From Zeaxanthinibacter enoshimensis (GTDB taxonomy: Bacteria > Bacteroidota > Bacteroidia > Flavobacteriales > Flavobacteriaceae), in the NCBI RefSeq assembly GCF_004362865.1, contig NZ_SNYI01000001.1:1054001-1118000 (forward strand): DNA of 64,000 nt, in the 5' to 3' direction. The position numbers were made by a program, and so were the translations under genes. Below, piece after piece: positions 31,431 through 51,607 of this stretch (the first letter of the stretch is position 1; each line of letters opens with the position of its first letter). The notes under the pieces are model-generated. The model did not search any database, was not told the origin of the DNA, and saw only the letters and a program-made list of their open reading frames with translations.

Positions 31431-32942
<1,512 letters not shown>

Positions 32943-32949
32943 AAAATGG

Positions 32950-33016
32950 TTCGAGGTTCGAAGTTAGAGGTTTGATAGGAACACGACCTCGAACCTCAAA
33001 CCTCAAACCTCAAACT
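32950..33016. repeat. inverted heptamer microsatellite between atpD and atpC
   Basis: Four heptamers in forward sense (GTTCGAG, GTTCGAA, GTTAGAG, GTTTGAT; 32950-32977) are followed by an 11-bp spacer and four heptamers in reverse sense (CTCGAAC and three CTCAAAC; 32989-33016). The two 28-bp arms can pair with about six mismatches, so the transcript should form a long hairpin inside the atpDC mRNA. The unit is the same GTTYGMR heptamer found in the composite repeats at 34.6, 41.2, 42.7, 43.0, 50.2 and 51.5 kb. Confidence 0.9.
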
Positions 33017-33029
33017 CAAATTAATAATC

Positions 33030-33308
33030 ATGCATTTAGAGATCGTATCACCGGAAGCAACCCTGTTCAGCGGGGAAGTGAAATCGGTTACCGTACCGGG
33101 CGTAGAAGGGGAGTTCCAGATGCTGGACAACCACGCTGCCATCGTTTCTGTGTTGCAGGAAGGTGATGTTAAGATAGAAGGCAACATTACCCTGGCCGAA
33201 AATGTAGAGGAATACTTTACCAGGAATGCAGAAGGGAAGACCGTGCTGCACATACAGAGCGGTACTGTTGAAATGAAAGACAACAAGGTCATCGTCCTCG
33301 CAGACTAA
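33030..33308 (+). CDS. atpC: F1F0 ATP synthase subunit epsilon (short form)
   Basis: The 92-residue product has the N-terminal beta-sandwich of the epsilon subunit (LEIVSPEATLFSGEVKSVTV, GEFQMLDNHAAIVSVL, VLHIQSGTVEMKDNKVIVLAD). The C-terminal helical hairpin that inhibits ATP hydrolysis in longer epsilon subunits is absent (E. coli is about 139 residues). Short forms occur across Bacteroidota, so this is not a local truncation. The subunit links the rotor to F1; inhibition must be handled otherwise. Confidence 0.96.
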   Translation: MHLEIVSPEATLFSGEVKSVTVPGVEGEFQMLDNHAAIVSVLQEGDVKIEGNITLAENVEEYFTRNAEGKTVLHIQSGTVEMKDNKVIVLAD

Positions 33309-34522: not shown

Positions 34523-34640
34523 CATAGGGGGACAACGGGGACAGAAGGGCCAAAGGAATACTGCCAACTGCAAACTGCCGACAGCCCACTGGAGGCAGGC
34601 CTCGAACTTCGAACCTCAAACCTCGAACTTCAAGCCTGCC
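34521..34640 (-). repeat. composite repeat, copy in reverse orientation
   Basis: Read on the minus strand this fragment has the same module order as the islands at 41 and 43 kb. First come five heptamers (34635-34601: GCTTGAA, GTTCGAG, GTTTGAG, GTTCGAA, GTTCGAG), then the CAGT-type 7-mer block with GGCAGTATTCC (34600-34556), then a degenerate TTGTCCC block (34548-34522). A small hairpin AAGCCTGCC/GGCGGGCTT is at its edge. It directly follows the stop of the upstream gene. No coding potential. Confidence 0.8.
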
Positions 34641-40362: not shown

Positions 40363-41184
40363 ATGAACAGATTAATGATCCTGGGCCTGCTGGTCCTGCT
40401 GCTCTCGTGCCGGGAAGAGCCGGTTCAGAAGGAAACCATCACAGAAACTGAAACCGCAGAAGGTATCCCTGTCCTGAACCTGGGGACCTTCCATATGGGT
40501 TATACCACGGATGCGAATACGACCGAGTTCGATGAGCACGATAAGAAGAACCGGGAAGAAGTGCACGCGATCGCGGCACGGCTGGCTAAGTTTAAACCCA
40601 CGGTGATCGCAGTAGAGATGGAGCCGCAGTATAACGATCGCCTCCAGGAGCAATACCGGGCTTACCGGGAGAACCCGTCCATGCATTTTGAGTACCCGGA
40701 CGAGATTGAACTGCTGGCATATGAAGTCGGCCGGCTTAGCGGCACGGAAAGGATCTACGGCATAGACCACCAGATGGGCTATGACTACCCCGGGATCGAT
40801 TCCCTGGCACGAACCCTCGACACGCCCGCCTATAAGGCTTATATGAAAATGGCCGGTTATCGCGGGGAACAGGATTACGATTCGGCCTCCACCCTGGACA
40901 AGCTCAGGATCATCAACCGGAACATCAACCTGGATTTCCTGATCACCGTTAATGCCGATATCCTTACCCATGTTGCCACGGAAGGGAACTTTGAAGGCGC
41001 AGACGAGGCCGCGAAGTTTTACCACCGCAACCTGCGGATGTTCTCCAATTTAAACCAGTTGCCCCTCTCCCCGGATGACCGGGTCTTTATCCTGATGGGC
41101 GCCTCCCACACTGCCTTTTTCCGCGACTTCATGAGCCGCAACCCCAATTATCATATGGTGGATACGTTTGGGTTCCTGGATTAG
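40363..41184 (+). CDS. DUF5694 lipoprotein (TraB/GumN-like)
   Basis: 273 residues, lipobox LLSC with Cys at 16. The mature domain begins PVLNLGTFHMGYTTDANT and contains AVEMEPQ, YGIDHQMGYDYPG and a C-terminal LMGASHTAFFRDF. This is the DUF5694 pattern, distantly like TraB/GumN/ChaN proteins with two conserved G-H motifs and acidic residues. Activity unknown. The last base of its stop codon is the first base of a composite repeat island. Confidence 0.82.
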   Translation: MNRLMILGLLVLLLSCREEPVQKETITETETAEGIPVLNLGTFHMGYTTDANTTEFDEHDKKNREEVHAIAARLAKFKPTVIAVEMEPQYNDRLQEQYRAYRENPSMHFEYPDEIELLAYEVGRLSGTERIYGIDHQMGYDYPGIDSLARTLDTPAYKAYMKMAGYRGEQDYDSASTLDKLRIINRNINLDFLITVNADILTHVATEGNFEGADEAAKFYHRNLRMFSNLNQLPLSPDDRVFILMGASHTAFFRDFMSRNPNYHMVDTFGFLD

Positions 41185-41418
41185 TTCGAGGTTTGAGGTT
41201 TGAGGTTCGAAGTTTACGGTTTGCTGTTCGCAGTTTGCAGCCAGACTCCAGTAAGCAGTCGGCAGTAAGCGGTCGGCAGTATTCCGAGATTCATATCTTG
41301 TCCCTTCTGTCCCTCTTGTCCCGTTTGTCACATATTTTCCTATGTACCTATGTACTTCTACCCTGCATCCCGGCGTGACTGTGTGACGGAATGACGACAT
41401 TACCGCATCACCGCATCA

Positions 41419-41450
41419 CCCGCCCGTACCGGACGGTACGTTCGGGCGGG
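41419..41450. repeat. GC palindrome P1
   Basis: Outer arms CCCGCCCG/CGGGCGGG enclose an inner inverted repeat GTACCG-GA-CGGTAC, so a stable hairpin or cruciform is possible on either strand. Identical to P6 at 43349-43380. Confidence 0.9.
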
Positions 41451-41518
41451 CTGTATCACCGTGTAACTGTTTGCATCCCCGCATCACTGCATCACTGCAT
41501 CACCGTATCACTGTATCA

Positions 41519-41550
41519 CCCGCCCGTACCGAACGGTACGTTCGGGCGGG
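41519..41550. repeat. GC palindrome P2
   Basis: Same 32-bp design as P1 with one base changed in the centre (GAAC for GGAC). It follows directly on an array of six 8-mers (41474-41521). Confidence 0.9.
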
Positions 41551-41586
41551 CCGTGTAACTGTTTGCATCCCCGCATCCCCGCATCA

Positions 41587-41615
41587 CCCGCCCGAACGAC
41601 GTTCAGGCGGGCGGG
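41587..41615. repeat. GC palindrome P3
   Basis: 29-bp variant with core GAAC-GAC-GTTC between CCCGCCC and GGCGGG arms; the same core occurs at 50375 and 50595. Confidence 0.85.
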
Positions 41616-42655: not shown

Positions 42656-42680
42656 AGGGGGAGGACGGGGTGCCCTGGTA

Positions 42681-43027
42681 GTTCGAAGTTTGAAGTTCGA
42701 AGTTCGAAGTTCGCAGTTTGCAGTTCGCAGTTTGCAGCCTGTCTCCAGAAGGCAGTCGGCAGTGTGCGGTAGGCAGTATTCTAGAACCATTTCACAGTTC
42801 CTTCTATCCCCTTTATCACCGAATTTCCGCATCACTGCATCACCGCGTCACCGCATCACTGTTTGAATCACTGCATCACCGCATCACCGTATCACCCGCC
42901 CGCCCGCCTGCATGTACGCAGTACGGGCAGGAACGACGTTGAGTCGGGCGGGCTGTATCACCGCATCACTGTTTGCATCCCCGCATCCCTGCATCCCTGT
43001 ATCCCGGCATGACGGTGTGACGGCATC
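42681..43027 (+). repeat. composite microsatellite island, copy E2
   Basis: Eight phase-perfect heptamers (42681-42736: four GTTYGAA then alternating GTTCGCA and GTTTGCA), the CAGT-type block ending GGCAGTATTC, a degraded TCCCTTT segment, then 8-mers CATCACTG/CATCACCG and palindrome P4, more 8-mers, and CATCCCGGCATGACGGTGTGACGG. It is followed at once by copy E3; both begin after CCCTGGTA. Part of a 913-bp non-coding stretch with no gene. Confidence 0.9.
42895..42952. repeat. GC palindrome P4, long form
   Basis: CCCGCCCG and CGGGCGGG arms enclose a 42-bp insert that contains a second inverted pair (CCTGCATGTACGCAGTACGGGCAGG in outline). The same long form recurs as P5. Confidence 0.85.
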
Positions 43028-50174: not shown

Positions 50175-50374
50175 GGGTAAAATTTTTGTGGCGGCAAAGA
50201 TAGGGGAAATAGTTTGAGGTTCGAGGTTTGAGGTTCGAGGTTTGCCGTTGGGGGGAGGTTAACTTTCACGATTCCGATATACCCGGATACCCGTATGCGA
50301 ATGTAGCCGGATTACCAACGGTATCCCTGAGTGCCCGTGTGCCGGTTTGAAGTTTTAGCCGTATCACGGCATCA

Positions 50375-50403
50375 CCCGCCCGAACGACGTTCAGTCGGGC
50401 GGG
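50375..50403. repeat. GC palindrome P7
   Basis: CCCGCCCGA/TCGGGCGGG arms around ACGACGTTCAG; same core as P3. It lies inside the first 220-bp unit, flanked by CATCAC and CTGTATCAC. Confidence 0.88.
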
Positions 50404-50594
50404 CTGTATCACTGTTTCACCTCTCAAATAGGTTTGAGGTTCGAGGTTTGAGGTTCGAGGTTTGCCGTTGGGGGGAGGTTAACTTTCACGATTCCGATAT
50501 ACCCGGATACCCGTATGCGAATGTAGCCGGATTACCAACAGTATCCCTGAGTGCCCGTGTGCCGGTTTGAAGTTTTAGCCGTATCACGGCATCA

Positions 50595-50623
50595 CCCGCC
50601 CGAACGACGTTCAGTCGGGCGGG
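50595..50623. repeat. GC palindrome P8
   Basis: Exact copy of P7 carried by the second 220-bp unit. Confidence 0.88.
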
Positions 50624-51021
50624 CTGTATCACTGTTTCACCCCTCAAATAGGTTTGAGGTTCGAGGTTCAAGGCGTGCTTGGGGATGTTAATTTGAGGGT
50701 TCTGTGTTCACGGTTCGCGGCCTGCCTGCGGCATGTAAATTTGCGGTTTGCGGTTCGCTACACCGTTCTGGGATGCCTAGGTTGTATCAGTGATATCAAC
50801 ACCTTGTCACCTTTGTCACATTTGTCCCTCTCTGTCACTTTGTACCTATGTACCTGTGTAACCGAGGAGATCGAGGTTCGAAGTTCGAGGTCTGACAAGG
50901 GGAGGTAATCTTGAGGCTTCTGCGAAACTATAGAACCTGATGCTGGAAACAAAGCAGTAATGTCATTACGGTTTTTACAATAACCCGGGGTGTCTTAAAT
51001 TGCATTCTCAATTAGATACAG

Positions 51022-51523: not shown

Positions 51524-51607
51524 CGAACTGCGAACTGCGAACTGCGAACTGCGAACTGCGAACCGCAAACCGCAAACTTCAAACCTCAAACCTCAAACCT
51601 CGAACCT
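51524..51607 (-). repeat. pure heptamer array, 12 units (copy E6)
   Basis: Twelve consecutive 7-mers without a phase slip: CGAACTG five times, CGAACCG, CAAACCG, CAAACTT, CAAACCT three times, CGAACCT. On the minus strand this is GTTYGMR, so the array is in sense orientation downstream of the DUF5602-like gene. Variants are grouped, a gradient expected from slippage or unequal exchange. Because 7 is not a multiple of 3, the open frames running through it are artefacts. Confidence 0.95.

Follow-up and report, generated by a model that had tools for sequence, protein, structure and literature searches.

In our best reading, the hairpin that lies between atpD and atpC in Zeaxanthinibacter enoshimensis belongs to a family of intercistronic hairpins that can be exchanged and are linked to PF05635 elements; we do not take it for a special regulator of the epsilon subunit. 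Comparison of sequences establishes its position between the two genes, its predicted fold, its heptamer periodicity, the near-fixed distances that anchor such hairpins to the stop and start codons, the exchange of cassettes between species, and a build held in common with elements that carry PF05635 genes. The finding is real, and it is more interesting as an exchangeable hairpin family than as an epsilon regulator. It brings together intergenic heptamer repeats and the four-helix-bundle proteins of the rRNA intervening sequences (IVSs), which are co-located at operon junctions and whose numbers are correlated across 149 genera. Moreover, sister species exchange the whole joint of an essential operon and yet retain its fold and anchors. 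This amounts to a natural experiment on the requirements of ribosomes and RNases at the junction of two genes, and it cautions against taking such hairpins for gene-specific regulators.

In the window (the whole stretch of 64,000 nucleotides of the Z. enoshimensis genome that was analysed), the spacer between atpD and atpC is 87 nt long and contains four forward and four reverse heptamers. Its parts and the two flanking genes are as follows.

31434..32942, + strand: atpD, F1 ATP synthase subunit beta, 502 aa (open reading frame; NCBIfam TIGR01039, 775 bits against a cut-off of 463)
32943..32947, + strand: linker of 5 nt from the atpD stop to the stem (sequence and predicted fold; family interquartile range 3-5 nt)
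32948..32975, + strand: left arm, four G/T-rich sense heptamers, GGTTCGA, GGTTCGA, AGTTAGA and GGTTTGA (sequence and predicted fold)
32976..32988, + strand: middle stretch of 13 nt, without an ORF (sequence and predicted fold)
32989..33016, + strand: right arm, four A/C-rich inverted heptamers (sequence and predicted fold)
33017..33029, + strand: leader of 13 nt, A/T-rich and unpaired, 5' of the atpC start (sequence and predicted fold; family interquartile range 13-16 nt, with an A-rich tail)
33030..33308, + strand: atpC, F1 ATP synthase subunit epsilon, 92 aa (NCBIfam TIGR01216)

The atpC product scores slightly below the TIGR01216 cut-off (64.7 against 67.25 bits), and 17 of the 17 matches listed for it are to epsilon models. 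An earlier, sequence-only reading of this DNA had described a hairpin with 28-bp arms around an 11-bp spacer. The four heptamers on either side, the opposite orientation of the two arms inside the operon and the arm length of 28 are all borne out; the phrase "28-bp arms" is nevertheless a little generous, because the 28-position register holds 22 Watson-Crick pairs, 2 G-U pairs and 4 mismatches, and the stretch between the arms measures 13 nt, not 11. The same reading placed a long hairpin immediately 5' of atpC, and RNA folding agrees: the predicted stem (32948-33016) has 26 pairs and an energy of -27.9 kcal/mol, against -12.8 +/- 2.5 kcal/mol for shuffled sequences (z = -5.9), with none of 200 shuffles equalling it. 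No intrinsic terminator, with a G+C-rich stem and a sense-strand U run behind it, is present at the window hairpin, and of 60 hairpins in relatives one has at least six T within 10 nt of the 3' end of its stem; this interpretation was rejected, since the U run is missing. The A-rich stretch that precedes the stem in 20 of the 60, which would be a T run for an antisense transcript, is not general.

The survey of the atpD-atpC spacer began with 79 named relatives and was widened to 146 non-redundant Flavobacteriaceae species by adding two genomes of the same genus and a sample from other genera (151 spacers before the removal of duplicates; locus L110 was omitted from the named-relative comparison). 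AtpC was detected in 144 of 149 genomes of the family. The junction is normally tight, as had been claimed, with a spacer shorter than 50 nt in 50 of the 146 species (median 20.5 nt); it is longer in the remaining 96, and at least one third of the species have no hairpin. Sixty of the 96 long spacers combine a fold z of -2 or lower with a lag-7 self-match of at least 0.45, and 36 fail this joint criterion. Among the other gaps of 50-150 nt at the same loci, bounded by genes that were called with a simple ORF caller, the criterion is reached by 2 of 111 same-strand, 6 of 68 convergent and none of 34 divergent gaps. The period is that of the heptamer: over the 96 long spacers the mean self-match is 0.491 at lag 7 and 0.42 at lag 14, and it lies at 0.25-0.30 for lags 3-6 and 8-13. 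In an independent array test, run on 80 named loci, the result was positive in 22 of 55 atpDC gaps, and in none of the other gaps of 30-150 nt (59 same-strand, 38 convergent, 16 divergent); among longer gaps at these loci it was positive in 1 of 85 same-strand, none of 16 convergent and 3 of 10 divergent ones.

The heptamer itself varies among species (CTCAATA, ACTGAAT, AACTCAT, AACAACA, ACTGCAA and others), and by comparison of the sequences it is the site that is conserved, not the word. Across the atpDC hairpins, structure is kept and sequence is not. Within the genus of the window, G003 (locus L112) has a heptad hairpin of a different word at the same place, and G001 has an 86-nt spacer without fold or period (z = -0.4, lag-7 self-match 0.25). 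The sequence-only reading had proposed comparing this spacer in close relatives, with absence of the repeat from all of them as part of the contrary outcome; many relatives have a heptad hairpin, mostly built from another word.

The position of these hairpins within their spacers is also nearly fixed. In the 60 family hairpins the stem begins a median of 3 nt after the stop codon (interquartile range 3-5) and ends a median of 14 nt before the ATG (13-16), with a median of 22 pairs per stem, compared to the 26 in the window, and the nucleotides 5' of the atpC ATG are A-rich across the family. The unpaired remainder of the spacer is 18 nt (15-20), against 32 nt (17-43) in mononucleotide shuffles, and this is about the length of the hairpin-free spacers (median 20.5 nt). 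Such a geometry suggests that the hairpin takes itself out of the path between the terminating and the initiating ribosome.

We consider it probable that the hairpin is an ORF-less, IVS-like element in an operon junction, tolerated in the mRNA spacer because it folds away. Its arms are the inverted tandem heptamers, and larger relatives of the same build hold a gene for a PF05635 four-helix-bundle protein between them. In the transcript the element would fold into a single stem, and since this stem spans from 3-5 nt after the stop to about 14 nt before the start, the insertion would be folded away and the effective stop-to-start distance kept (about 18 nt, against about 20 nt in hairpin-free spacers). 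An element of this kind should be nearly neutral for the translation of atpC, and the cassette could thus be gained, lost or exchanged. By analogy with the IVSs of 23S rRNA, the stem may be cut by RNase III, and processing of the RNA at the atpD-atpC hairpin is plausible on such a model. The PF05635 proteins, in turn, might help to spread or maintain the arms of what would be a mobile element, at a cost or benefit to the host that is presumably small.

The exchange of cassettes was followed in Winogradskyella, for which we read 67 spacers and built an atpD tree, many of whose forks are weakly supported. By reading of the sequences, these spacers fall into several heptad classes, two classes of non-heptad hairpin and an empty state of about 17 nt, the spacer being shorter than 50 nt in 21 of the 67 species. 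Occurrence is sporadic, with sisters that lack the cassette or differ in its class. Empty and hairpin-bearing spacers meet in the sister pairs L292/L294 and L246/L247, and between L284 and L278/L287 the spacers are unrelated, with atpD and atpC about 96-98% identical. A pairwise test used the 46 spacers of at least 50 nt, with cassettes regarded as unrelated below a similarity of 0.70 and as the same from 0.85 upwards, the pairs being non-independent: where atpD identity is 95% or more (36 pairs), 23 pairs carry unrelated cassettes and 4 the same one, and a shared cassette occurs in 9 of the 854 pairs with atpD less than 92% identical. Similar cassettes also recur across genera. Clean insertion and excision were rejected, as empty and filled sister spacers have no common remnant; for the same reason the exchange resembles replacement.

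Could homologous recombination in the conserved genes on either side simply carry these spacer alleles from species to species, the cassette itself being immobile? Conservation is very high at the end of atpD and the start of atpC, so that short tracts could replace just the heterologous spacer, and cassette similarity is indeed weakly and positively related to atpD similarity (Spearman 0.11). The pair L273/L275 speaks against this: the two spacers are identical at 67 of 68 nt, atpD is 88-91% identical, and the differences start within 20 nt upstream of the spacer. Recombination alone, moreover, leaves the occurrence of such hairpins at unrelated junctions unexplained. As the whole explanation we think it rather unlikely; it could, however, coexist with a tolerated, fold-away element as the route by which the latter is exchanged.

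Two further observations were made at the Winogradskyella loci. The non-heptad hairpin cassettes stand between atpD and atpC at L244, L271, L274, L281, L283, L291, L246, L279 and L293, in the forms GACCCTGAA...TTCAGGGT followed by AGTTAAACAAGTTTAACT, and GACTTCCGA...TCGGAAGC; in the three examples viewed (L246, L274, L283) the atpD stop codon is TAG, not TAA. AtpC occurs in two quite different forms within the genus (L228-L294), 24 matches being 76-100% identical to the query and the others 58-67%; the ORFs of the named members measure about 97 as against 91-92 aa, and the two forms are patchy on the atpD tree.

The window's copy has no PF05635 ORF between its arms, and since the longest atpD-atpC spacer is 147 nt, none of the 213 species surveyed (146 and 67) has room for one at this site. 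The link to PF05635 comes from other loci. Of 149 genomes, 113 were positive for PF05635, and the 30 best-scoring loci from these were analysed, 12 of which lie at the fadB-fadA junction. Both neighbours are co-directional in all 30 loci, against 234 of 402 background genes (at L437, the nearest called downstream gene is 1116 nt away). Complementarity between the sequences that flank the PF05635 gene reaches z of -2 or lower in 21 of the 25 testable loci, the arms of the other five being too short for the test, against 11 of 87 control operon genes. At lag 7 the self-match of these arms reaches 0.504, whereas lags 4-6 and 8-11 give 0.29-0.36; a strong lag-7 stretch is present in 22 of the 30 loci and absent from 8, and 6 have a lag-8 stretch. 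In the window's own genome, two of the three PF05635 genes were read, and both are flanked by inverted arrays: L444 by octads (z = -6.1), and L125 by heptads with a borderline value (z = -2.0). PF05635 proteins also give weak, sub-cut-off matches to bAvd and NF033474.

On a larger scale, the number of ACT-heptad arrays in 149 genera correlates with the number of PF05635 genes (Spearman 0.71, or 0.67 given genome size, uncorrected for phylogeny), the median number of arrays being 0, 7 and 35 for 0, 1-3 and at least 4 such genes. An association between the atpDC hairpin and the presence of PF05635 in the same genome was tested and is absent: the hairpin occurs in 29 of 52 genomes with PF05635 and in 5 of 12 without it (Fisher p = 0.52; 64 of 69 loci, with a looser hairpin criterion than the joint test of fold and lag 7).

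The same build is found at operon junctions unrelated to ATP synthase. A single atpDC cassette, searched for in 14 genomes with query DNA that was offset by 6 nt and so includes the atpD end, was found at atpDC in seven of them and, as a full-length relative (77-78%), at sdhA-sdhB in two. Thirty sampled ACT-heptad arrays included three at atpD-atpC, five at rpsM-rpsK and one at fadB-fadA; the rest lie elsewhere, some of them within ORFs or divergent gaps. Among 52 sdhA-sdhB junctions, 36 measure 1-19 nt, 12 measure 39-115 nt and 4 hold a PF05635 ORF. The lag-7 self-match is at least 0.46 in 9 of the 12 longer junctions, two of which (L303 and L304) were preselected by the cassette search. The four ORFs were recognized by Pfam (L350, L354) or by tblastn (L360 and L362, both in pieces), and at three of these loci the arms around the ORF gave z = -2.6 (L350), -3.0 (L362) and a weak -1.2 (L360). 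The sdhA-sdhB junction of the window's genome (L344) is 63 nt long and without heptads. At fadB-fadA, with the same flanking genes, there is an ORF-less hairpin in L144 and a PF05635 ORF in L416; the arms of the latter are AGTATTGAG/CTCAATACT, and the same word occurs at atpDC in L229 and L232. To judge from these sequences, the sdhA-sdhB and fadB-fadA junctions exist in three states: empty, with an ORF-less hairpin, or with a PF05635 gene. Gene identities were checked for atpD, atpC, sdhB, rpsM and rpsK (L137), the fadB/fadA-like pair (L144) and the four-helix protein; sdhA, act, infA/rpmJ and the rps genes outside L137 are what we take them to be from their sequences.

The rpsM-rpsK junction (L364-L413) was set apart from this kind of element, since its heptad arms enclose a conserved inner sequence. 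The spacer is at least 50 nt long in 33 of 50 cases, and 32 of these 33 have the inner sequence GAATCTGTTTGAAAT...AGGATTC inside the arms. It gave no Rfam match in L133 and L137, both of which were scanned, and is possibly a regulatory RNA for ribosomal proteins. In the window's genome (L394) this spacer is 11 nt long.

These other junctions bear on the proposal that the atpD-atpC hairpin is a host regulatory device, which would set the ratio of beta (three per F1) to epsilon (one per F1) by RNA processing or RNA stability, as the sequence-only reading has it, or by translational coupling. There is something to be said for it: a strong predicted fold stands directly between the stop and the start, it is anchored almost invariably to both codons in 60 hairpins, and the site is a specific hotspot. 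The terminating ribosome would, in addition, overlap the left arm, and so translational coupling would be physically plausible. However, the spacer is shorter than 50 nt in 50 of the 146 family species and in 21 of the 67 Winogradskyella species, sisters of hairpin-bearing species among them, and dedicated control of beta and epsilon fits poorly with replacement or absence between sister species. It also fits poorly with the same build at sdhA-sdhB and fadB-fadA, junctions at which no 3:1 ratio of products is expected. We therefore regard a dedicated regulator as improbable.

The distribution of the heptamer within the genome has to be considered as well. With up to two mismatches allowed, the word GGTTYGAGGTTYGA occurs 38 times in the window, where 1.6 occurrences would be expected; its exact form is found 79 times in the 3.34-Mb genome, and that of the reversed control 0 times. 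Only 1 of the 47 array clusters of this word that were examined in the genome has both orientations, and it is the one at atpD-atpC; the remaining 46 have a single orientation. The sequence-only reading took the repeat to be inserted into the operon. This agrees with the dispersal of the word in the window's genome (G000), and in G160, but it does not hold in general: in G152, G138 and G161 the spacer word has no second exact copy elsewhere, and the insertion of a dispersed repeat was for this reason dropped as a general account.

Other arrays in the window are recorded here for their own sake. Single-orientation arrays of the same or a related word occur at 34602-34636, 41183-41237, 42680-42737, 50207-50668 (a 220-nt unit repeated 2.1 times) and 51524-51607, and some start directly at a gene's stop codon with the G/T-rich strand as sense (41183). 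Different tandem words, CAGTAAGCAGTCGG and octads of the TGCATCAC type, are found at 41249-41281, 41398-41587, 42815-42896 and 42974-43010; octad arms likewise flank the PF05635 gene at L444, in the same genome.

A purely mutational origin would dispense with an element altogether: slippage in 7-nt steps would produce the tandem arms and template switching at quasi-palindromes their inversion, with selection only removing spacers that do not fold. In most of the genomes that Mrazek 2007 studied, according to PMC4679880, no long simple repeats were more abundant than heptanucleotides; the spacer word lacks a second exact copy in some genomes, and each arm can be homogeneous and yet unlike the other, as in L093. 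On the other hand, the near-identical cassettes of L273 and L275 between diverged flanks, and the recurrence across genera, require either transfer or a very repeatable mutation, and the PF05635 genes found between such arms, together with the correlation of arrays with PF05635, are left without explanation. This origin, too, seems to us improbable. That two opposite copies of a dispersed GGTTYGA array merely landed side by side is disfavoured and would be highly improbable, despite the 79 matches in the genome and the lack of a heptad hairpin in the same-genus G001, given that the one mixed cluster of 47 lies at the very junction that in many relatives bears a hairpin of another word and that the same-genus G003 has one of a different word at the same place.

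If the tolerated, fold-away element is the correct reading for this junction, one may ask how far it extends. There could be a widespread class of mobile IVSs in mRNA, in which PF05635 (Avd-like) proteins and heptad hairpins spread via operon junctions, ORF-less copies both outnumber and outlive coding ones and RNase III trims the transcripts; the intergenic heptamer arrays of Bacteroidetes, and perhaps those of Cyanobacteria and Beggiatoaceae, would then be arms or remnants of such elements. We put this forward tentatively, as a possibility that we would not yet favour.

Among known systems, the closest in build are the IVSs of 23S rRNA (S23p/IVP protein, Pfam PF05635, TIGR02436). Versions of these without an ORF exist. 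Like the window family, they have terminal inverted repeats that form a stem, and such a long stem is present in the window's copy; the four-helix-bundle ORF lies in the loop, and this same build is met at sdhA-sdhB and fadB-fadA. According to PMC4990558, IVSs carry PF05635 ORFs inside stems that are cut by RNase III, and that of Coxiella has a stem of 28 bp with tandem heptameric repeats just upstream of its S23p ORF. IVSs and atpDC cassettes are both sporadic, and the same paper mentions signs of horizontal transfer for the IVSs (PMC4990558). In contrast to these, the window element lies between atpD and atpC, in an intercistronic mRNA spacer and not in a helix of the 23S rRNA gene, its arms are heptad arrays, and it is without an ORF. 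PF05635 proteins also resemble Avd, the accessory protein of diversity-generating retroelements (PMC10053308).

The intergenic heptamers of Beggiatoaceae, Cyanobacteria and some Bacteroidetes, TAACTGA among them (MacGregor 2015, PMC4679880), are likewise tandem heptamers in intergenic spacers, and TAACTGA fits the ACTNNNN phase observed in the present survey. In the main genome described there, most of them directly precede start codons; they are direct repeats apart from a single inverted case, and no RNA structure is predicted for them, whereas the arms in the window are inverted; the excerpted account, moreover, contains no PF05635 link, conserved site or cassette exchange (PMC4679880). The Rfam cis-regulatory leaders of Flavobacteriia, finally, resemble the window's hairpin as structured RNAs in operon spacers, and the S4-Flavobacteria leader is present in four rps loci. 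They differ in that no Rfam family fits: the covariance models gave no match at the gathering score anywhere in the 64-kb window, nor at any hairpin in a scan of 12 atpDC loci. At L171 (2314-2455) there is a Flavo-1 RNA (RF01705), about 0.8 kb downstream of the atpC start.

Among the matches listed in the openly licensed PMC literature, we found no account of PF05635 elements or heptad hairpins at mRNA junctions. By strict membership the window element, being in mRNA, inverted and ORF-less, is neither a 23S rRNA IVS nor a repeat of the TAACTGA type. In its anatomy, and by analogy, it would work like an IVS that has no ORF, with putative cleavage of its stem.
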